Positions 7,251 through 35,866 of a stretch of 40,945 bases of DNA are shown piece after piece; positions within the stretch are counted from its first letter, which is position 1; each line of letters opens with the position of its first letter. Both the position numbers and the translations under genes were made by a program. This stretch comes from Alphaproteobacteria bacterium (GTDB lineage Bacteria; Pseudomonadota; Alphaproteobacteria; Caulobacterales; Maricaulaceae), in NCBI GenBank assembly GCA_024278915.1, contig JAJRSG010000082.1:1-40945 (forward strand), given 5' to 3'. The notes beneath the pieces are model-generated. The model did no database searches. It worked only from the letters and a program-made list of their open reading frames with translations, and was not told the DNA's origin.

Positions 7251-8909
7251 ATGCCCAGTTTTCGAAAAATTTCCATATATGCTCTGGTTGGGTTTTGTGT
7301 CTTTAGTATGATGAGTTGGCAATATGCCTCCCCAAGTTTTGCACAAGTGGATCCTGAAGACGATGCAGAAGACGACGTTGAAGATGATGTTGAGGATGAC
7401 GTAGAAGATGATGTCGAAGATGATGTTGAAGATGATGTTGAAGATGACGTTGAGGATGACGTTGAGGATGACGTTGAGGATGACGTAGAAGGCGATGTCG
7501 AAGATGACGTAGAAGACGACGTTGAAGATGATGTTGAAGATGACGTAGAAGACGACGTTGAAGATGATGTTGAAGATGACGTAGAAGATGATGTTGAAGA
7601 CGATGTCGAGGATGATGTTGAAGATGACGTTGAGGACGATGCCGAAGATGATGTTGAGGACGATGTCGAAGATGACGTTGAGGACAATGTCGAAGAAGGT
7701 GCAGAAGATGACTTGGAAAATGATGATTTCAATGATGCATATCGTATGAATGATGAAATTGAACAAGTAACGGAATCTATCGAAATGCGAGACCTCGATC
7801 GCTTTATTGTTGAAAATGATGAAATTGGAAACATCGCATTAACGGGCGAGGTTTTGATCCTTGCTAGAGCCGGTGAGTTAGATGAGCTTGTTGCACAAGG
7901 TTACCTGATACGAGAGCAACAAGAGCTAGGTGGTCTAGAAAAAATGATGGCGAGGGTCGAGCCTCCAGTCAGCCATAATATTGCACAGGTGAAGGATGAT
8001 ATTGTTAAAATACTACCCGATATTCCAGTTGATTATAATCATCTTTATACGACGAAAAGAGGTAAAAGTTATGTCAAAGGAAGTGGTATTATACCTAAGA
8101 CGCTTTTTGATGCCCATGAATACAAATGGGGAGAGGGTCTCAGAATTGGAATGATTGATACTGCCATTCGGGCTGATCATAAAGTGTTCTCAAATGCAAA
8201 AATTAAAACCCGAGAGTTTGTATCCTTTGATTTCAAGCGTCCCGTGCACGGCACTTCGGTTGCTTCCATATTGGTTGGTCAATCCCCAAATTATCAAGGT
8301 CTTGTGCCCAATGCCGAGCTATATGCGGCTTCGGTGTTCTTTAATTCGCCTTTAGGTGGGGAAACTACGACAACAGAAAACTTGGTGCAAGCAATTGACT
8401 GGATGGTTGCTAATGATGTGAAAGTCATCAATATGAGCCTCGCAGGGCCGGAAAATGCGATCTTAAAAGCAGCAATTGAAAGGGCGGCTGATAAAGGAGT
8501 TGTTGTTGTTGCCGCCGTTGGTAATGATGGCCCGTCGGCAAAGCCTCTGTATCCTGCTGCTTATGCGAATGTTGTGGCGATTACTGCCGTTAACAAGGAA
8601 AATAATATTTATCGTTATGCCAACCGTGGCGACCACGTTGATTTTGCCGCGCCAGGGGTTGCTATTCGCAACGCGCGTGGCAATAGTAAATACCAATCCT
8701 CTAGCGGTACCAGTTTCGCGGCTCCTTTTGCGGCAGTAACACTAGCTTTGGCGCAAGCGCAGTATAAATTATCGAATGGTTCCTTATTAGAACAATTAAA
8801 GGATAATGCGGAAGATTTAGGCGTAAAAGGATATGATCCAATATATGGTTATGGCTTGCTGCGCCCTTTGGAAAAGTCGCCTGTTACAGCCGCTGCGAAA
8901 CCGGAATAA
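7251..8909 (+). CDS. S8 (subtilisin-like) serine peptidase with N-terminal polyacidic (EDDV)n repeat
   Basis: Signal peptide ending SFAQ; catalytic motifs IGMIDTAIRADH (Asp), VHGTSVASILVG (His), AAVGNDG (Asn), SSGTSFAAPFAA (Ser). Confidence 0.93.
   Translation: MPSFRKISIYALVGFCVFSMMSWQYASPSFAQVDPEDDAEDDVEDDVEDDVEDDVEDDVEDDVEDDVEDDVEDDVEDDVEGDVEDDVEDDVEDDVEDDVEDDVEDDVEDDVEDDVEDDVEDDVEDDVEDDAEDDVEDDVEDDVEDNVEEGAEDDLENDDFNDAYRMNDEIEQVTESIEMRDLDRFIVENDEIGNIALTGEVLILARAGELDELVAQGYLIREQQELGGLEKMMARVEPPVSHNIAQVKDDIVKILPDIPVDYNHLYTTKRGKSYVKGSGIIPKTLFDAHEYKWGEGLRIGMIDTAIRADHKVFSNAKIKTREFVSFDFKRPVHGTSVASILVGQSPNYQGLVPNAELYAASVFFNSPLGGETTTTENLVQAIDWMVANDVKVINMSLAGPENAILKAAIERAADKGVVVVAAVGNDGPSAKPLYPAAYANVVAITAVNKENNIYRYANRGDHVDFAAPGVAIRNARGNSKYQSSSGTSFAAPFAAVTLALAQAQYKLSNGSLLEQLKDNAEDLGVKGYDPIYGYGLLRPLEKSPVTAAAKPE
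7356..7691 (+). repeat. 12-bp coding tandem repeat, 28 units, encoding (E-D/G-D/N-V/A)28
   Basis: GAAGATGATGTT-type units with no frame interruption over 336 bp, followed by degenerate units EEGA and EDDL. Confidence 0.97.
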
Positions 8910-26170: not shown

Positions 26171-26243
26171 TTTTCTCGCACTTTACTTTTGTGACAAATC
26201 AGGTATGAAGAGCTAATTGTGACATTCTGGTGTTACTTTGGGG

Positions 26244-27998
26244 ATGTATATGAATTTACCGACAAGTACGGAACGTGGCCAGCCAATGATATTGGGGCAT
26301 TTCGATACATTGATTGCAGGCCTCGAATATGCGGCGACTTGTGACACTGGATATAATTTTTATTCTAGCCGCGGCGATCTGAAAACAAGCCTGACGTATA
26401 AAGAACTCCGTGATAAGGCTGTTGAAGCGGCCCATCGTCTTGTCGGAATTTGTGATGCGGGTGATCGTGTGGGGATTGCCGCCGTTACCAGTCCTGATTT
26501 TGCCATCATGTTTTTTGCTTGCCAATATGCGGGACTTGTACCTGCACCCTTGCCATTACCAGTAACGCTTGGTGGGCGGGGTAGTTATGAGCGTCAATTG
26601 CAACGTATGGCAGATACTGGTGATTTTGGGGCGTTATTAATGCCGGCCAGTATGGAAAAAATCATGAGCTCAGCCCTGAATGACCATGATGTTCCTGTGA
26701 TAAGTTTCGAGAGCGTAGCTGATTTACCGCGTCAAGATGATCTACGCCCGCATCAAGCTGACGACATGTGTTATATTCAATATTCCTCTGGGAGTTCCAG
26801 TTCACCAAAAGGTGTTGTTGGTACCCAGTCCACAGTTGTTGCAAATTGCGTTGGGATTATTAGTGAAGGTGGGCTCGGGATTAATGACAATGATCGGTGT
26901 GTATCATGGCTGCCGCTTTATCATGATATGGGGCTTATTGGTTTTATGATCACCCCAATGATGTCGCAAATGACTGTGGATTATCTGGATCCTTCTGATT
27001 TTACACGACGCCCAATTACTTGGTTGCAAATCATTCAGGATAATAAAGGGACATTGTCTTATAGTCCCACATTCGGTTATGAGTTATGCGTACGGAGATG
27101 GCGTTCAGATCGGGAGCTTGATTTGTCGAGCTGGCGTCGTGCTGGTATTGGTGGTGATATGGTTCAACCGGAACCTTTGAAAGCATTTACAGAATTGTTC
27201 GCACCAAGTGGCTTTACGGAAAGTGTTTTTACACCAAGTTATGGGCTGGCTGAGGCCACACTTGGCGTTTCTTTCACACCTGCTGGGCAAGGGTTGCTTT
27301 GTGATACCATCGATATGGCTCGTTTTGAGCGTACGGGGGAAGCTATCCCCGCTTCTGAAATTACTGCCGAAGAAGATAAACGTACATTTATTGCCTGCGG
27401 TAAAGTAATACCGAAACATTCCTTAGAAGTCAGGAGTTTTGAGGGGGATGTTATGGGAGAAAGGCAAGTCGGACGGATTTGCTTTAATGGCCCAAGTGTA
27501 ACTCCTGGATATTTTCATAATGCCCAAGCAACGCAAGCCGCCTTTACAGAAGACGGCTGGTTGGACACGGGGGATTTAGGATATTGGCTTGATGACCAGA
27601 TTGTCGTGACAGGCCGATTTAAAGATTTAATTTTGTGGCATGGCCGCAATATTTGGCCACAAGATATTGAATGGGCAGCACAGGCGGCGGCCCCTAGCCG
27701 TTGTGGTCGTGCATGTTCATTTTCTATTGGTAGTGGCGACGAAAAAGATATTATTTTGTTGTTGGAATGCCGTACTAGAGATGAAAAATTGCTAGAAGAA
27801 ATTCATGCTACGGTAAGCTCAGCTATCCGCTTGGAGATCGGGGCGCCAATTACCTTAATCCTCGTGCCACGTAGCACAATGATTGTAACTTCATCTGGTA
27901 AATTAAGCCGCGCGCGGGTTCGGGAAAAATTCTTGTCTGGTGCTGTCATTGATTTGCAAGCTAATGATACGATTAAGGCCGTCGACCAAGAAGCCTGA
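26244..27998 (+). CDS. Fatty acyl-AMP ligase/acyl-ACP synthetase
   Basis: CYIQYSSGSSSSPKGVVGTQ, SWLPLYHDMGLIG, YGLAEATLGVSF, DGWLDTGDLGYW; listed 26238 start is a TTG, ATG at 26244/26250 more likely. Confidence 0.9.
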   Translation: MYMNLPTSTERGQPMILGHFDTLIAGLEYAATCDTGYNFYSSRGDLKTSLTYKELRDKAVEAAHRLVGICDAGDRVGIAAVTSPDFAIMFFACQYAGLVPAPLPLPVTLGGRGSYERQLQRMADTGDFGALLMPASMEKIMSSALNDHDVPVISFESVADLPRQDDLRPHQADDMCYIQYSSGSSSSPKGVVGTQSTVVANCVGIISEGGLGINDNDRCVSWLPLYHDMGLIGFMITPMMSQMTVDYLDPSDFTRRPITWLQIIQDNKGTLSYSPTFGYELCVRRWRSDRELDLSSWRRAGIGGDMVQPEPLKAFTELFAPSGFTESVFTPSYGLAEATLGVSFTPAGQGLLCDTIDMARFERTGEAIPASEITAEEDKRTFIACGKVIPKHSLEVRSFEGDVMGERQVGRICFNGPSVTPGYFHNAQATQAAFTEDGWLDTGDLGYWLDDQIVVTGRFKDLILWHGRNIWPQDIEWAAQAAAPSRCGRACSFSIGSGDEKDIILLLECRTRDEKLLEEIHATVSSAIRLEIGAPITLILVPRSTMIVTSSGKLSRARVREKFLSGAVIDLQANDTIKAVDQEA

Positions 27999-28000
27999 GT

Positions 28001-28927
28001 ATGAACGCTCAATCTCCATTACCGCTCATCGCCCTAACGGGGGCTACTGGCTTTGTTGGTGGAAGAGTCTTGCGTCAATTATTGGACCGCGGTTACCGTG
28101 TAAAAGCACTAGTGCGCCCCGGGTCTCATTCTAAAACCATTCAATCTGAGCAAATTAATTGGATAGAAGGCGAATTGGGTGATGACGCTAGTAATAACGC
28201 GCTCACACTTGGTGCTGATATTGTCCTCCATATGGCTGGATTGGTTACCGCGCGAACCAAAGATGATTATTATCGGGTAAACTCTACCGCTGTTGGCAGT
28301 CTTGCTATGGCAGCACGAAAACAAGGGGTGACAAGGTTTATTTATTTGTCATCTTTGGCGGCTAGAGCGCCAAAACTTTCTGATTATGCGGGTTCGAAAC
28401 GTGCTGGTGAGGGCATATTATCCCGTAAATTAGGGGAAATGAAGGGGGTTTGTGTTCGCGCGCCCGCTGTATTTGGAACTGGGGATAAAGCTACAGCTCC
28501 TTTTTATGCACTTATTAGGAAAGGAGTGTTACCTTGCCCTGGTGGAAAGAATTGGCGCGAGCGGAAACTTAGCCTCATTTATGTGGATGATTTGGTTGAT
28601 TGTCTCGTTGGGGCGTGTTTGCTTGGTGAGCATGACGGAAAAACTGTCTATACGGCGACACGCGCCTGCCTGACCTGGCCTGAATTTGCAGAGGAGTGCG
28701 CAAAGGCCAGCGGGAAGTCTGTTAAAATACTACCTTTGCCTTTATCCTTTTTATACAGTGTGGCGGCTGTAACAAGTGTAACAAAACGTGTACTGGGCAT
28801 GGGGCATTTAACGCTAGGCAAATTGCAAGAGTTTCTTTATGAGGACTGGAGTATAAGCGCTGATTTGCAAACTGATACGGATTTGCAAGAAGTATTAAGA
28901 AAAACGATCTTAGAGGATAGCCCCTAA
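28001..28927 (+). CDS. NAD-dependent epimerase/dehydratase family protein (ceramide reductase candidate)
   Basis: LTGATGFVGGRVLRQLLDRGYRVKALVRPGS, YLSSLAARAP...YAGSKRAGE; syntenic with ACP and SPT. Confidence 0.85.
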   Translation: MNAQSPLPLIALTGATGFVGGRVLRQLLDRGYRVKALVRPGSHSKTIQSEQINWIEGELGDDASNNALTLGADIVLHMAGLVTARTKDDYYRVNSTAVGSLAMAARKQGVTRFIYLSSLAARAPKLSDYAGSKRAGEGILSRKLGEMKGVCVRAPAVFGTGDKATAPFYALIRKGVLPCPGGKNWRERKLSLIYVDDLVDCLVGACLLGEHDGKTVYTATRACLTWPEFAEECAKASGKSVKILPLPLSFLYSVAAVTSVTKRVLGMGHLTLGKLQEFLYEDWSISADLQTDTDLQEVLRKTILEDSP

Positions 28928-29179
28928 ATGTCTCAGCCGACTCATGACGAAGTATATAATAAAATTTGCGAATTACTGGTCCCCTATAATCCCAAAGGCA
29001 TCGCCATAAGTCACCAAAGCGGCATTATGACGGATTTGGAAGTAGATTCGACCGCTGTATTTGACCTAATAATGGGCCTTGAAGATTTTTACGATATTTC
29101 TATACCCATGGAAATGGTTTCTGACATAAAAACGGTTGGAGAGCTCGTTAACGCAGTGATGCAACTAACTTCAGAGTAA
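28928..29179 (+). CDS. Acyl carrier protein
   Basis: 83 aa, TDLEVDSTAVFDLIMGLEDFYDISIPMEMVSDIKTVGELVNAV with DS phosphopantetheine motif. Confidence 0.9.
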   Translation: MSQPTHDEVYNKICELLVPYNPKGIAISHQSGIMTDLEVDSTAVFDLIMGLEDFYDISIPMEMVSDIKTVGELVNAVMQLTSE

Positions 29180-29189
29180 TAGGTCCACG

Positions 29190-30416
29190 ATGGATATATT
29201 TGATAAATTTTCAGCCCTTAAAACCCGTACTGATTTAGTAGAGAAGCTTGGTGTAGATCCATTCGGGGTAAAATTCGATACAATTTTGAACGCTACACGG
29301 GGATTAATAGGCAATCAGGAAATTATTCTGGCGGGTACAAATAACTATTTGGGACTGACTTTTGATCCGGATTGTATTGAAGCTTCTGTAAATGCACTCA
29401 AAAAGCATGGCACGGGTACGACTGGTTCACGGATTGCCAATGGTTCATATGAAGAACATGTAGATTTGGAAAATGCGCTTGCTAAACATACAGGCATGGA
29501 AAGTGCTGTTATTTTTTCTACGGGTTACCAAACTAATTTAGCGGCAATCGCAACTTTGGCAGGGCCAAAAGATGTGCTCTTTATTGATGCAGATAGCCAT
29601 GCTTGTATCATTGATGGCTGTCGCCTCAGTGCCGCACCAACGATACGGTTCCGTCATAACTCTCCGTCAGATCTAGAAAAGCGACTGATCAGGCAGGGCG
29701 AAATAGAAGGTGGTATCGCCCTTGTTGTGATTGAGGGTATGTACTCCATGTTTGGCGATAAGGCTCCGATAAAAGAGTTTGTCGAAGTTTGCGAGCGCCA
29801 TGGCGCTTATCTTTATATTGATGAAGCACATTCATTTGGTATTTTTGGCCCAACTGGTTGCGGACTAGCTGAAGAAGAAGGCGTGCTCGACCGCGTTGAT
29901 TTTATCAGTGGAACTTTCTCAAAAAGCTTGGCTTCCATTGGTGGATTTTGTCTATCCCGCCATAAAGCATTTGAGGTAACGCGTAAGGCGATGCGGGCGT
30001 ATATGTTTACGGCTTCGCCTACTCCGTCCAATGTAGCCGCAGCGAGAGCGGCTTTGGATAAAATTGCAGAAAAGCCCGAACTTAGGAAAAATTTAAAAGA
30101 GCGTTCAGAACAGCTTCACGCAGGCTTGCTTGCACTTGGGCTTGAGTTATGCGCTCCCCCTGGGCCGATTATCGCCGTACGGCGCCCTAATGAACTTATT
30201 GCGGCTACAGAGTGGAATTGGTTGATGGAGAATGGTATCTATGTGAACTTAGCGGTTCCGCCAGGTACCCCGCAATCCAGTTCATTATTACGGATCAGTC
30301 TATCTGCTGCTCATACCAAAGAAGATATTGATCTAATTTTGGCAGGATTTTCACAGTTGAGCCAACTGGGGGATGCCATGACAGCGCGAGCTCAGGAAGT
30401 ATTGGCTGCGCAATAA
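29190..30416 (+). CDS. spt: Serine palmitoyltransferase (alpha-oxoamine synthase family)
   Basis: NNYLGLTFDP, GTGTTGSRIANGSYEEHVDLE, DEAHSFGIFGPTGCGLAEE, SGTFSKSLASIGGF; ceramide gene context. Confidence 0.9.
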   Translation: MDIFDKFSALKTRTDLVEKLGVDPFGVKFDTILNATRGLIGNQEIILAGTNNYLGLTFDPDCIEASVNALKKHGTGTTGSRIANGSYEEHVDLENALAKHTGMESAVIFSTGYQTNLAAIATLAGPKDVLFIDADSHACIIDGCRLSAAPTIRFRHNSPSDLEKRLIRQGEIEGGIALVVIEGMYSMFGDKAPIKEFVEVCERHGAYLYIDEAHSFGIFGPTGCGLAEEEGVLDRVDFISGTFSKSLASIGGFCLSRHKAFEVTRKAMRAYMFTASPTPSNVAAARAALDKIAEKPELRKNLKERSEQLHAGLLALGLELCAPPGPIIAVRRPNELIAATEWNWLMENGIYVNLAVPPGTPQSSSLLRISLSAAHTKEDIDLILAGFSQLSQLGDAMTARAQEVLAAQ

Positions 30417-31352
30417 TTACTTAAATGCCCCGCGACGATATAGTTTCCATGCGAGAACAGGTGACCACAAAATTGGGTGTCTGCGCTGGCTTGGCGTGAT
30501 GTCAATGGTGACACCAGAGTGAGATTTTAACTTGTGTAAGACGTAATCAATACCGCCGCTAAAGGTAAACCCGCTATTGAGTACGCGGATTGCATTCATT
30601 GGTTTCCCCAAAATACGTCGCCATGCCCATGCCCATTTACAAGCTAAAATTTGTGTACGTGAGAATTTGGGGAGCGTGAACTCACCGCTTTGTTGCGGAG
30701 TTCCATATAGTACTTGCATGATTTTTTCGTAACGGTCTTGATATCTTGCCACGATTTCTTGGGAACGTGCATCGGAACTTTCCGGGCGTAGTTCCGTTCT
30801 ATAGCTTTGCAAAAAACCTTTGGCCCAAAATTTTACGGCACTGGTTGGGGAGGAAACGATAGGAGCGGTAATTGAGGCCATGTGAAGGATCGCGTTTACT
30901 CTTGCCGCTTGAATCTGTGATTTAACGGATTTGTCCTTTGGAAATAATAGGACACATGGCTGCGAGAACCTCCCCCATGTTACAGACAAAAAAGCTTTTC
31001 TTGTCGCTCGCCGCTCGAATGCGCCCAGAGATATTACGGAATATTTACAAGTAGACAGCGTACCGTCCGCATTAATGTTCTCCAGGTAATATACCGCTGG
31101 CGGGATCAAACTATTTAATATGGCGCGGATTGGGTTTTTATGTGTCTTGAAATAACTGTCCACGACGACATAAAAGTCGAGCATTTTTTCTGGGTCATTC
31201 ATCGCACGAAGTGAGGATCCATAATAAAGCAAGGCTTGGACTCTGCCTTCATGTCGTGCTTGTATTTTTTCGCACATGGCGGCGGCAGGTTGGGAGGGTG
31301 AAATTTGTTCCCCCTCCAGAATATCCAATAATGATGAGATTTTGGTTTCCAT
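30417..31352 (-). CDS. Tam41-like phosphatidate cytidylyltransferase (CDP-lipid synthase candidate)
   Basis: LLYYGSSLRAMNDPEKMLDFYVVVDSY...CKYSVISLGAF...GRFSQPCVLLF resembles Tam41/TAMM41 YGSG...MLDFxFxVDD...KYGVIS...AGRLQKPV. Confidence 0.65.
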   Translation of the reverse strand: METKISSLLDILEGEQISPSQPAAAMCEKIQARHEGRVQALLYYGSSLRAMNDPEKMLDFYVVVDSYFKTHKNPIRAILNSLIPPAVYYLENINADGTLSTCKYSVISLGAFERRATRKAFLSVTWGRFSQPCVLLFPKDKSVKSQIQAARVNAILHMASITAPIVSSPTSAVKFWAKGFLQSYRTELRPESSDARSQEIVARYQDRYEKIMQVLYGTPQQSGEFTLPKFSRTQILACKWAWAWRRILGKPMNAIRVLNSGFTFSGGIDYVLHKLKSHSGVTIDITPSQRRHPILWSPVLAWKLYRRGAFK

Positions 31353-31353
31353 G

Positions 31354-32292
31354 TTATTTAACAAAGGAAATTGGCGGGCTAACGGAAAGGGTCATAGGTT
31401 GATTTGTTTCGGGTAAAAACTCGCCGTCAAGCACCATTGGGCCGTGGTATTGCATTTCTGCTGTATCAAGAGCCCAAGAATTGAACCCATTATCCGTAAG
31501 GTTTTTTATGGATTTTTCAGATTGTTTTGGTTTCAACATGCGAGCCATATTTGAAATAAGGTGTTTCGCCCCAGCACTAACATGGGTCATGCGGATAGCG
31601 CCATTTCCTTCACCCCAAAACGGATTTAATCCGATCATTAAACCAGGGAGGGTGGTGGCGATGCTAACAATATGGTCGCCTTTTATATTGGTGTTTCCAA
31701 AGTTCATGGAAAAAGAGGTTGGTGCTAAAATAATATTCCGGTCATCTCCGCGCCCAAAAAGAACCCTTAACAACGTTGTTCGTACCGCAGCTGCGCCAGT
31801 AATGCCGTCCGTGTAAACCTTGTCAAAGCAAAAATGCGTTCCTTTAGGGAGCGCGCCCGTGGAAAAGAGAAAGCCGTTGTGTATACCGTGTTCGGTTTGA
31901 ATTTTTAACAAAGGTAGTTGGGTCTTTGTACAATGATTTGGTGAGCTTAATAACGCTGCAATTTTCTCTGGTGTCGGTTTTTTGACGCCAACATGCTTGG
32001 CAACCAAATTCGTCATGCCGCCCGGTAGAAGAATAAAATGTGGAAATTTCTCGAACTTCGGGGCTTGGTTGATAAATTCACTTAAAACCCCATGAATTGT
32101 TCCATCCCCGCCCTCTACACATACTGTTTGTACACCATCATCAGCCGCGGCGCTGACCAAATTTGGGAGTGTGTCAAATGTATCAAGCACATGGCTAGTG
32201 GCGTTTTCATTATGTGCGGATTTGGACAGGACGGAGCCATGTTTTTTTACGCTGTAACTCAAGGGGTTTATGAAAAAAGCGGCCTTGGTCAA
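31354..32292 (-). CDS. Diacylglycerol kinase-family lipid kinase (ceramide kinase candidate)
   Basis: VCVEGGDGTIHGVLSEFI (GGDGT), ILLPGGMTNLVAKHVGV; probable TTG start. Confidence 0.85.
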   Translation of the reverse strand: MTKAAFFINPLSYSVKKHGSVLSKSAHNENATSHVLDTFDTLPNLVSAAADDGVQTVCVEGGDGTIHGVLSEFINQAPKFEKFPHFILLPGGMTNLVAKHVGVKKPTPEKIAALLSSPNHCTKTQLPLLKIQTEHGIHNGFLFSTGALPKGTHFCFDKVYTDGITGAAAVRTTLLRVLFGRGDDRNIILAPTSFSMNFGNTNIKGDHIVSIATTLPGLMIGLNPFWGEGNGAIRMTHVSAGAKHLISNMARMLKPKQSEKSIKNLTDNGFNSWALDTAEMQYHGPMVLDGEFLPETNQPMTLSVSPPISFVK

Positions 32293-32427
32293 AATGCGTA
32301 AAACTCCGAGGTGTTATGTATGTTTATGGTGTGCTTCATACCCTTTGCCCCCTTGCTTCGCAACATTAACTATTGAATTTGCGCGGATAAAAAAGCACAA
32401 CAAGGAAACAGATAAAGAGTCGTGATT

Positions 32428-33579
32428 ATGGTGCAAAATTCTATTTCGGTTATTCCGGTTAAGGATAAGAAGCAACTCAAACAATTTCTGGCTTTCCCAT
32501 ATGATTTATATCGTGGGGAAGAGAACTGGCGGCCTCCCTTGCGGTTCGAACGGGGTGAACAAATTAACCCAAAGAAAAATCCGGGCCTAGATGGTTTGGA
32601 AATTCAGCATTTTTTAGCTTTACAGGGCGGAAAAGTAGTCGGGAGAGTGAGTGCCATTATTAATGCTTCCCACCTCGAACAATATCGGGATAGCACGGGG
32701 CATTTTGGTTTTTTTGATGTTGAAAGTGATCCGAAAATTGCCGAGGCGTTAATGGCTGTGGTCGAACAATGGCTAAAAGATCGTGGTATGACCCGTGTAC
32801 TGGGGCCGTTCAACCTTGGTATTAATGAAGAGATTGGCATTCTAATTGACGGGTTTGATTCCCCGAATGTGATGTTGATGCCCCATGGCCATAAAGACTA
32901 CCCAACGACTCTGGAAGGCATGGGGTTTCGCAAGGCTAAAGATGTAATCGCTTTTTGGGCAAATATGCACGAAGGTTATCCACGGCCAAAAATTGTAAAT
33001 TTAATGCTGAAACTATTCGAGAAAACTAAAGAGGCCACTCTACGTCCCATGAAATCGGGTAAATTGCTGAGTGAAGTCGAAGTTGCCATTGATATATTTA
33101 ACGACGCTTGGTCTGAAAATTGGGGGTTTATTCCGTTTTCTAAGGCGCAGGTTAAACATATGGCAACGGAATTAAAGCCCATTATGATGAAGGACTTTTT
33201 CTGGTTTTGTGAATATGAGGGGAAGCCTGCCGCATTTATTTTAATGCTGCCGAACCTTAATGAAGCGGCCGAAGGCTTGGACGGAAAATTATTACCATTT
33301 GGCTGGGCCAAGCTTTTATATAGGATTAAAGTCAAAGGGTTAAAGTCTGCTCGCATTCCTTTAATGGGCGTGAGTAAAGAGTTTAGAGGCACCCGCCTTG
33401 GTACGGCAATGGCGGCTGTATTAAGTGAAAAGGCTTTCGAAATGGGCCGTAAACACGGATATACCCATGTCGAAATGTCTTGGATACTTGAAGATAATCA
33501 GAGCATGATCCGGATTATTGAACAAGCAAAGGGCGTGCCATATAAAACTTACCGCATGTATGAAAAACCAATAAAATGA
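32428..33579 (+). CDS. GNAT-like acyltransferase, bacterial ceramide synthase candidate
   Basis: FPYDLYRGEENWRPPL, GRVSAIINASHLEQY, GPFNLGINEEIGILIDGFDSPNVMLMPHGHKDYP, C-terminal GNAT-like region; ceramide locus context. Confidence 0.75.
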   Translation: MVQNSISVIPVKDKKQLKQFLAFPYDLYRGEENWRPPLRFERGEQINPKKNPGLDGLEIQHFLALQGGKVVGRVSAIINASHLEQYRDSTGHFGFFDVESDPKIAEALMAVVEQWLKDRGMTRVLGPFNLGINEEIGILIDGFDSPNVMLMPHGHKDYPTTLEGMGFRKAKDVIAFWANMHEGYPRPKIVNLMLKLFEKTKEATLRPMKSGKLLSEVEVAIDIFNDAWSENWGFIPFSKAQVKHMATELKPIMMKDFFWFCEYEGKPAAFILMLPNLNEAAEGLDGKLLPFGWAKLLYRIKVKGLKSARIPLMGVSKEFRGTRLGTAMAAVLSEKAFEMGRKHGYTHVEMSWILEDNQSMIRIIEQAKGVPYKTYRMYEKPIK

Positions 33580-34352
33580 CACCTAAAACCAATGTGTTAA
33601 TTTTGGCTGGACAAAGAAGCAAAGATGGTGAGCCATTGCCAGATGCTTTGTGCACCCATGCTGGCGTGAAGTGGAAAGCTCTTTTGCCGGTCCATGGGAA
33701 GCCCATGACGGCATATGTATTGGATGCTCTAGATCATAGTTCAGGCTTGCAAAAACCTTACTGGGTAAGTGGTCTGGATGTGAATCTTTTGGGAGGGGGG
33801 CTTAATCAAAGCCCTTCTGCGGATGGCCCTGCGAGTAGTGTTGTCGAAGCTGCGCAAGCGGGTTTGCCTTACCCCTTTCTGGTAACAACCTGTGATCACG
33901 CGTTGCTTACACCCGATATGGTGGAAATTTTTTTAAAAGGGGCGCAAGAGAGCGGCGCAGATTTTGCTTTAGGGTTGGCAAGCAAGTCTGTAATTCAGCC
34001 AGCATACCCGGAAACAAAGCGTACTTATTTAAAGTTCAAAGATGATAGCGTGTCTGGTTGTAATTTATTTTATGTGAAAAATGAAAACGGGCTAGAAGCC
34101 ATCAAGTTTTGGCGAGCAGCACAACATGACCGTAAAAAACCAGTAAAATTAGCACGTAGGCTTGGTATCGGCATGTTGTTAAAATACGTGACAGGGCGGT
34201 TAACTTTGGGTGGTGCTTTTGTACATGCTTCGGATAATTTGAAAGTTAATGCCAAGCCCATATTATTGCCCTTCGCCGAAGCTGCTATTGATGTTGATAA
34301 GCCATCGGACTTGATACTTGTCGAAGAAATTTTATCTAAGAGACACGGATGA
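33576..34352 (+). CDS. MobA-like nucleotidyltransferase
   Basis: VLILAGQRSKDGEPL...VKWKALLPVHGKPMTAYVLDAL, FLVTTCDHALLTPDMV; ATGA overlap with upstream gene. Confidence 0.8.
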   Translation: MTPKTNVLILAGQRSKDGEPLPDALCTHAGVKWKALLPVHGKPMTAYVLDALDHSSGLQKPYWVSGLDVNLLGGGLNQSPSADGPASSVVEAAQAGLPYPFLVTTCDHALLTPDMVEIFLKGAQESGADFALGLASKSVIQPAYPETKRTYLKFKDDSVSGCNLFYVKNENGLEAIKFWRAAQHDRKKPVKLARRLGIGMLLKYVTGRLTLGGAFVHASDNLKVNAKPILLPFAEAAIDVDKPSDLILVEEILSKRHG

Positions 34353-35032
34353 TCGTGCCAACGCAAAATATTGCTATTTTTGATCTGGACGAAACCCTCA
34401 CCCAAAAAGGGACATGGGGGCGGTTTGTTGTTTCCAGTATTCGCGGCAAGCCGCTAAAATATATTCCATTTATTGTGCAAACAATATTCTCGCAAATGTT
34501 GTATGTGGTTGGTGTCGGCCCGCGTGAACATGTGAAAGAAGCGATGATGCGCCGTACCTTGTCAGGACGTTCGCGCGTGGAATTGGAGGCTATGGCCGAA
34601 AAATTTGCACAATTTGAGGCCTATGACGGCATGCGATCAAAGGCAAAATCTATGATTGAGAGGCACCGTAAGGCTGGAGACCGTATCATTATTGCAAGCG
34701 CCGCGGTTGATCTTATTGTTGATCCGATTGCTCGGCATTTGGGGGTAGATGAGGTTGTTTGCACAAAAATGGCTTACACGGAAGAGGGAGTGCTGGCCAA
34801 GAAATTGGGCGGACCAAATTGTTACGGGGCAGGAAAATTGACTATGGTCAAGGAATACCTCGCGCAAGATGATCATTATAGGCGTGATGAAGCCCACATC
34901 ACAATGTATTCGGACAGTAAATCCGACCTTGATATATTGCGGTGGGCTGATGTAGGTATTGCGGTGCATCCAAGTCCGCGCCTGCTTAAATATGTAGATC
35001 AATATGGGTTTGAAGTGCAGATGTGGGATTAA
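34349..35032 (+). CDS. HAD-IB family phosphatase
   Basis: IAIFDLDETLTQKGTWGRFV, IIIASAAVDLIVDPIARHLG, TMYSDSKSDLDILRWAD; ATGA overlap with upstream gene. Confidence 0.88.
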   Translation: MIVPTQNIAIFDLDETLTQKGTWGRFVVSSIRGKPLKYIPFIVQTIFSQMLYVVGVGPREHVKEAMMRRTLSGRSRVELEAMAEKFAQFEAYDGMRSKAKSMIERHRKAGDRIIIASAAVDLIVDPIARHLGVDEVVCTKMAYTEEGVLAKKLGGPNCYGAGKLTMVKEYLAQDDHYRRDEAHITMYSDSKSDLDILRWADVGIAVHPSPRLLKYVDQYGFEVQMWD

Positions 35033-35050
35033 GGAAAATAAGAGTTGAAC

Positions 35051-35866
35051 ATGGCAAATATTGAAGAAGTACAAGCGCCGGACCGCCCAAAATCGATATC
35101 AGGTAAGAGGCGCCGGTTTATCAAAACAAATGGTAAAAAAATTCTACGTAAAATAGAACGTGTGCAGACAAAACAATCACTCGTGCCGACAACGCCATTT
35201 GTCTCCAACGAGTATTTTGATTTTTTGCCGCAATTTGAAGAGCATTGGCGCGAAATCGAAAAAGAAGCGCAAGCTGTCTTGAAATTTCGGGACGCCATTC
35301 CCGGATTTGAAGATTTGTCACCAGATCAATACAGGATTGCCAAGGAAAACCAGTGGAAAACATTCGTTTTATATGGTTTTGGCACACGGCTGGAAAAAAA
35401 CACTGCGCTTACCCCAACGACAGCTAAACTGCTGGAAAGTATTCCAAATTTACAAACAGCATGGTTCTCTATTCTCGCTCCTGGTTATCATATTCCGGCG
35501 CATAAGGGGGTGACTAAGGGGATATTGCGTGCGCATTTGGGGCTTATTATTCCGAAGGAATTTGAGAAATGCCGCATTCGAGTCGGAGATGATATTAAGC
35601 CTTGGCAAGAAGGAAAACTTTTTGTTCTTGATGACACTTATGAACACGAGGTTTGGAACGATACGGACGAGGAACGGGTTATCTTATTGTTTGACTTTGA
35701 CCGACCAATGCGGTTTTGGGGACGTTTCTTAAATAGTTTGTCTATGAAGCTTATGAAAAAAACTGCTTTCTATAAAGATCCCAAGAAAAATGTCTCGGAC
35801 GCGGAAGATCGCTTTGAAGCGGCCGTCAAGCAGGCGAATGCCAATTTGGAAGCGATGAGTGATTAG
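35051..35866 (+). CDS. Aspartyl/asparaginyl beta-hydroxylase (LpxO-like) family protein
   Basis: WFSILAPGYHIPAHKGVTKGILRAHLGLIIP, KLFVLDDTYEHEVWNDTDEERVILLFDFDRPM: 2-OG dioxygenase H...R...H pattern. Confidence 0.88.
   Translation: MANIEEVQAPDRPKSISGKRRRFIKTNGKKILRKIERVQTKQSLVPTTPFVSNEYFDFLPQFEEHWREIEKEAQAVLKFRDAIPGFEDLSPDQYRIAKENQWKTFVLYGFGTRLEKNTALTPTTAKLLESIPNLQTAWFSILAPGYHIPAHKGVTKGILRAHLGLIIPKEFEKCRIRVGDDIKPWQEGKLFVLDDTYEHEVWNDTDEERVILLFDFDRPMRFWGRFLNSLSMKLMKKTAFYKDPKKNVSDAEDRFEAAVKQANANLEAMSD

Follow-up and report, generated by a model that had tools for sequence, protein, structure and literature searches.

The window, a 40,945-nucleotide stretch of alphaproteobacterial DNA, carries the marine-alphaproteobacterial version of the Caulobacter gene pair cpgB-cpgC, and its CpgC is a new, divergent member of the family. 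Modelling gives this protein a Tam41-type nucleotidyltransferase fold. The pair probably encodes the first two headgroup steps on ceramide, with CpgC acting as a CTP:ceramide-1-phosphate cytidylyltransferase. Counting for this reading are the Tam41 fold, the orthology, a linkage to the kinase gene in 91 of 91 loci, the tie to serine palmitoyltransferase (Spt), a separate CdsA in the same genome, and the published Caulobacter genetics. Counting against it, the window protein matches no Pfam Tam41 model, no CDP-alcohol phosphotransferase other than CpgA, as a consumer of CDP-ceramide, was found near CpgC, and CpgB accepts diacylglycerol (DAG) in vitro.

The cpgB-cpgC pair within a ceramide cluster

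The region constitutes a full ceramide cluster (aasR, cerR, acpR, spt and cerS) surrounding the pair:

26238-27998, plus strand: aasR-like fatty acyl-AMP ligase (NF006624, over cut-off)
28001-28927, plus strand: cerR-like NAD-dependent reductase (profile match and locus comparison)
28928-29179, plus strand: acpR-like acyl carrier protein, 83 aa (same gene family in 26 loci)
29190-30416, plus strand: spt, serine palmitoyltransferase (NF047599, 554.6 bits, cut-off 500), convergent with cpgB-cpgC
30417-31352, minus strand: CpgC ortholog, Tam41-like nucleotidyltransferase, 311 aa from ATG (ORF, fold and homology)
31354-32292, minus strand: CpgB ortholog, DAGK_cat lipid kinase with GGDGT motif, proposed ceramide kinase, 312 aa from a TTG start
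32422-33579, plus strand: cerS, bacterial ceramide synthase of GNAT fold (42% identity to the Caulobacteraceae-type ortholog)
33576-34352, plus strand: CC_1153-type MobA-like NTP transferase (39% identity to the protein of comparison locus L134)
34349-35032, plus strand: HAD-IB phosphatase of the cpg cluster (never together with a CC_1158-type phosphoesterase)
35045-35866, plus strand: Asp/Arg-hydroxylase-like protein (OlsC/LpxO-like), candidate acyl-chain hydroxylase (profile match and locus comparison)

The stop codons of spt and cpgC abut at 30416/30417. Translation of the minus-strand ORF agrees with the first-pass annotation of 30417-31352, including the blocks YYGSSLRAMNDPEKMLDFYVVVDSY, CKYSVIS and GRFSQPCVLLF, all of which occur in CpgC in that order. 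The product had been given as 312 residues; reading from the ATG at 31352 yields 311 residues plus the stop, and an alternative in-frame TTG at 31364 would yield 315. The same annotation had placed a DGK-family kinase 1 bp away in a ceramide locus, and this is borne out: cpgC lies downstream of cpgB, with a single base pair (31353) between the cpgB stop and the cpgC ATG, and ceramide genes stand around the pair. CpgB matches DAGK_cat (PF00781, E 7e-11) and contains the GGDGT motif, while CxxxCxxC is absent from its sequence. No other DAGK_cat protein was found in the window genome.

A single copy of CpgC is present in each of 24 among 61 relatives and of 63 among the order's 249 genomes, a conservation far beyond chance. 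Its relatives were gathered from whole genomes and 22 of them were aligned; among 35 diverse members, residues Y44, G45, D59, Y61, K103, R128, F129 and Q131 are invariant. Apparent CpgC fusions, seen as long open frames in some relatives, were discarded as read-through of GC-rich open frames.

Several features of the surrounding cluster vary between genomes. The HAD-IB gene is found in 53 loci and the CC_1158-type metallophosphoesterase in 11, with co-occurrence in 0 of 91 (hypergeometric p 2.5e-5, uncorrected for relatedness); the HAD gene, which stands between cpgA and cpgD in many genomes, may stand in for CC_1158 as a non-orthologous replacement. In sister genomes, lptF2-lptG2 separates cerS from cpgB, and a flippase gene lies between those for the CC_1153 protein and the HAD phosphatase; the window has neither at these sites (32293-32421 and the 34349 junction). 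Elsewhere in its own genome, contig C213 bears a contiguous LptF/LptG pair and the edge of contig C24 a fragment, and the transport genes may have been lost, moved or left unassembled. In the window, as in several sister genomes, the OlsC/LpxO-like gene is the last of the cerS operon, and its product is a candidate for acyl-chain hydroxylation of the sphingolipid. Farther away, the ORF list shows a subtilase-like protein (7251-8909) whose N-terminal portion contains a long, acidic repeat of DVED.

Orthology with the Caulobacter cpg genes

The window pair is orthologous to Caulobacter CpgB (CC_1160) and CpgC (CC_1161). As a reference we used locus L134 of the same order, whose gene order (aasR, cerR, spt, cpgC, cpgB, cpgA, phosphoesterase, lptF2/lptG2, cerS, CC_1153, cpgD) reproduces the published CC_1165-CC_1152 region of C. 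crescentus; L134 is taken as Caulobacter-type by this gene order, and all identities were computed against its Caulobacteraceae-type proteins. CpgC of the window is 30% identical to its L134 counterpart over 268 columns (E 4e-39), and the corresponding values are 26% for CpgB over 276 aligned columns, 39% for the CC_1153 protein and 42% for CerS. Furthermore, cpgB lies directly upstream of cpgC on the same strand in 91 of 91 CpgC loci, the window included, across Alpha- and Gammaproteobacteria, Desulfobacterales, Calditrichota and Marinimicrobia. Because the window proteins match those of L134 and the kinase holds this position in every locus, we assign the pair as cpgB-cpgC. Orthology to the Caulobacter cpg genes near spt had been named at first reading as a point to check, and the identity, the shared gene order and the kinase linkage all speak for it. 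We also built a tree of CpgB; lacking a paralog outgroup, it places the protein within the CpgB family only.

Caulobacter needs both CC_1160 and CC_1161 to form ceramide phosphoglycerate (CPG). Mutants without CC_1161 make no CPG and have more ceramide, and ceramide accumulates in mutants of either gene (PMC11324152). CpgB (CC_1160) is a demonstrated ceramide kinase that makes ceramide-1-phosphate (C1P); it also phosphorylates DAG in vitro, and its loss leaves phosphatidic acid (PA) unchanged (PMC10331486).

The Tam41 fold of CpgC

The AlphaFold (AF2) model of CpgC (pLDDT 88.5, pTM 0.86) points to a Tam41-type nucleotidyltransferase fold. In a fold search of the PDB, ranks 1 to 5 were all Tam41 chains, CTP-Mg bound or apo (E 2.3e-8 to 1.5e-6), matched over nearly the full length with target-normalised TM-scores of 0.51-0.60. 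The best match was bacterial Tam41 with CTP-Mg (7ecd, E 2.3e-8, TM 0.60), followed by S. pombe Tam41 (6ig4, 6ig2), and below these came aminoglycoside nucleotidyltransferases (E 6e-5, TM about 0.3). The structural comparison proposed at first reading thus turned out in favour of Tam41.

Detection by sequence is a different matter. The first-pass annotation had called the protein Tam41-like and named PF09139 as a check; the fold and a weak colinear alignment of a family member sustain the likeness, while the window protein itself does not match PF09139, even at E=10, and matches no other Pfam model. Sequence searches with it against NCBIfam and the PDB gave no Tam41 match either, and CpgC profiles of 22 and 35 members did not recover Tam41 from the PDB. 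Tam41 was recovered only by fold search and by single distant CpgC members. Against the Pfam gathering score of 24 bits for PF09139 (Tam41_Mmp37), one distant relative, from Desulfobacterales, lies above the cut-off (25.2 bits) and two more come near it (20-21 bits). A CpgC from another proteobacterial class aligns colinearly with S. pombe Tam41 (6ig2; E 1.6, hence weak), pairing KYAVIS, WARFAQP and SYAAE of CpgC with KYGVTS, AGRFQKP and SFAAE of Tam41.

The active site offers a further parallel. Of the three acids usually catalytic in the nucleotidyltransferase fold, Tam41 is reported to retain a single one (PMC11646218). Among the 35 diverse CpgC members, D59 is the invariant acid and the second acid site is occupied by the invariant tyrosine Y61; judged from the alignment, CpgC and Tam41 have this peculiarity in common. 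As for the C-terminus, which in Tam41 is characterised by a positively charged amphipathic membrane helix, the C-terminal helix of CpgC is hydrophobic and basic throughout the family (net charge +1 to +8), with a low hydrophobic moment in the window protein.

CpgC could also be read as a nucleotidyltransferase of generic type, for example one that modifies aminoglycosides, with coincidental Tam41 motifs. Short nucleotidyltransferase stretches are indeed its best sequence-profile matches in the PDB. Every Tam41 chain nevertheless ranked ahead of such enzymes, at about twice their TM-score, and the universal linkage to CpgB and Spt is out of keeping with a generic role, which makes this reading highly improbable.

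Dependence on sphingolipid synthesis and the choice of substrate

The distribution of CpgC follows that of sphingolipid synthesis. In the 249 genomes of the order, with Spt presence called by NCBIfam cut-off, all 63 CpgC-bearing genomes have Spt, and CpgC occurs in none of the 170 Spt-negative genomes (Fisher p 2.5e-44, uncorrected for shared ancestry). The window genome also has an ordinary CdsA, located elsewhere, so CpgC is not needed for CDP-diacylglycerol. Membership of CpgC in the CdsA type was itself considered and dropped, as the window protein has no similarity to PF01148.

These observations bear on the view that CpgB is a diacylglycerol kinase and CpgC a second CDP-diacylglycerol synthase with a true Tam41 function on PA, their genes lying near ceramide genes by chance or to secure supply. 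PA is indeed the substrate of the structurally solved Tam41 homologs, and the in vitro activity of CpgB on DAG would fit. Such an arrangement gives no account of the strict Spt dependence, nor of a cell that holds a canonical CdsA, and in Caulobacter it is CPG that vanishes and ceramide that rises on loss of CC_1161, with PA unchanged on loss of cpgB. We regard it as distinctly improbable. C1P is favoured over PA as the substrate because of the Spt tie, the separate CdsA, the sole DAGK_cat kinase of the genome, the Caulobacter genetics, and the identity of CpgB as a ceramide kinase whose loss spares PA.

We postulate the following sequence of reactions. CpgB would phosphorylate ceramide, as shown for the Caulobacter enzyme and expected here by orthology. 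Like Tam41 acting on PA, CpgC would then transfer CMP from CTP onto C1P, with CDP-ceramide and pyrophosphate as products. Ceramide phosphoglycerate, or another phosphosphingolipid, would arise when a further enzyme displaces CMP.

The cytosolic substrate may be an oxidised (3-keto) ceramide phosphate, since CerR is periplasmic in Caulobacter. In this variant, which is compatible with the cytidylyltransferase reading, CpgC would turn 3-keto ceramide-1-phosphate into CDP-(3-keto)ceramide, and CerR would act later, in the periplasm. The cytoplasmic location of Spt and CerS in Caulobacter speaks for it, as does the need of a kinase and a cytidylyltransferase for cytosolic ATP and CTP. Weighing the other way, CpgB works on ordinary ceramide in vitro, and ceramide accumulates in the CC_1161 and CC_1160 mutants; we think the variant unlikely.

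CpgA, CpgD and the step after CpgC

In a search for a conserved CDP-alcohol phosphotransferase in 91 CpgC neighbourhoods, only CpgA was found. Clustering of the unlabelled neighbours of CpgC returned a DUF2141 protein and an acyl carrier protein as recurrent members and no new transferase. CpgA was not seen in 47 of the 91 neighbourhoods and is missing in 13 of 24 CpgC-bearing relatives, several of them at least 96% complete; in Caulobacter it is dispensable for CPG formation (PMC11324152). Presence across the 61 relatives is nested, CpgD within CpgA and CpgA within CpgC, as expected if CpgC acts before CpgA and CpgD. Many genomes, that of the window included, have CpgB-CpgC without CpgA or CpgD. 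At the level of the locus, the same holds for L066 and L089 of the cultured relatives Algimonas arctica and A. ampicilliniresistens.

This pattern has a bearing on whether CpgC acts on C1P in some other way, using another nucleotide or joining glycerate or phosphoglycerate directly. The published pathway assigns CpgC to the step from C1P to CPG by an 'unidentified mechanism' (PMC12275187), and the formation of CPG without CpgA, together with the lack of a separate transferase near CpgC, is what would be expected if CpgC finishes the step. An unactivated condensation is energetically unfavourable, however (PMC11324152), and the fold match is specifically to the CTP-using Tam41; we consider such a reaction unlikely and retain CTP-dependent activation of C1P as the preferred reading.

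Other arrangements around the cpg genes were observed. In Hellea-type loci (L046:1622-4159, minus strand; L040:1680-4184, minus strand; similar frames), CpgA is fused behind a CC_1166-type flippase in proteins of 830-850 aa, which suggests that flippase and CpgA act together; a frame in L090 (6649-9033, plus strand) joins LptG2 and CpgA. The secreted DUF2141 protein recurs near cpg genes in 54 loci (e.g. L050:6136-6714, minus strand). A second locus of the window's genome (L182, G000:C141:1-13253) groups an inositol-3-phosphate synthase, a CDP-alcohol phosphotransferase, a flippase and an MMPL exporter, along with an NTP transferase fused to a GDPD domain and a DUF2141 protein. Its phosphotransferase is present in 6 of the 61 relatives, none of which has CpgA, and these genes possibly form an inositol headgroup route.

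Earlier proposals and significance

Olea-Ozuna et al. (2024) pointed to a CDP-DAG-synthase domain assigned to CC_1161 by InterPro and suggested that its product is an NDP-activated ceramide (PMC11324152), and the Klein group draws the step from C1P to CPG as unidentified (PMC12275187; PMC13228409). The term 'CDP-ceramide' was not found in the literature searched. The CDP-ceramide reading is thus sound in outline and was already proposed in print for CC_1161 (PMC11324152). New here are the fold match beyond the reach of Pfam, the linkage to CpgB in every locus, the strict dependence on Spt, the nesting of CpgD, CpgA and CpgC, and the separability of CpgC from CpgA and CpgD.

More tentatively, CpgC might found a CDP-ceramide-making sphingolipid branch of the Tam41 fold. 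CDP-ceramide would then be a shared branch point, leading in bacteria that have CpgB-CpgC without CpgA and CpgD to headgroups other than ceramide diphosphoglycerate. In the genome collection, tblastn confirmed 255 stretches with the family, the best 80 of which were inspected; they spread over proteobacteria, Desulfobacterales, Calditrichota and Marinimicrobia. The step from C1P to CPG belongs to a pathway that enables Caulobacter to survive without LPS and determines how sensitive it is to polymyxin. Should CpgC make CDP-ceramide, sphingolipids would have their own equivalent of CDP-diacylglycerol, and Tam41, known chiefly from mitochondria, would gain a bacterial sphingolipid branch. For assay, the family offers defined enzymes, one active-site residue and a metabolite.

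Comparison with known systems

The closest known system is that of Caulobacter crescentus. CpgC of the window and CpgC (CC_1161 / CCNA_01219) belong to the same family, are single-copy, and lie between spt and cpgB, converging on spt, at about 30% identity between the window and Caulobacter-type proteins. Likewise, CpgB shares with its counterpart (CC_1160 / CCNA_01218) the DAGK_cat domain, the GGDGT motif and the place directly upstream of CpgC, with the ceramide kinase role here following from orthology. Unlike Caulobacter, the window genome has no recognisable CpgA or CpgD; the window cluster holds a HAD-IB gene where Caulobacter has the CC_1158 metallophosphoesterase, and has no LptF2/LptG2 or flippase next door.

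CpgC resembles the Tam41/Mmp37 CDP-diacylglycerol synthases (PF09139; PDB 6ig2, 6ig4, 7ecd) in a nearly full-length fold match and in colinear conserved blocks, at 16-17% identity in the structural alignment and, for the window protein, below Pfam detection. It differs from Tam41 in sitting in a sphingolipid locus of a cell with its own CdsA, and its predicted substrate is probably a ceramide phosphate. With CdsA (PF01148), CpgC would share the type of reaction, CTP plus a lipid phosphate, whereas the multi-spanning membrane fold of CdsA is unrelated to that of CpgC.
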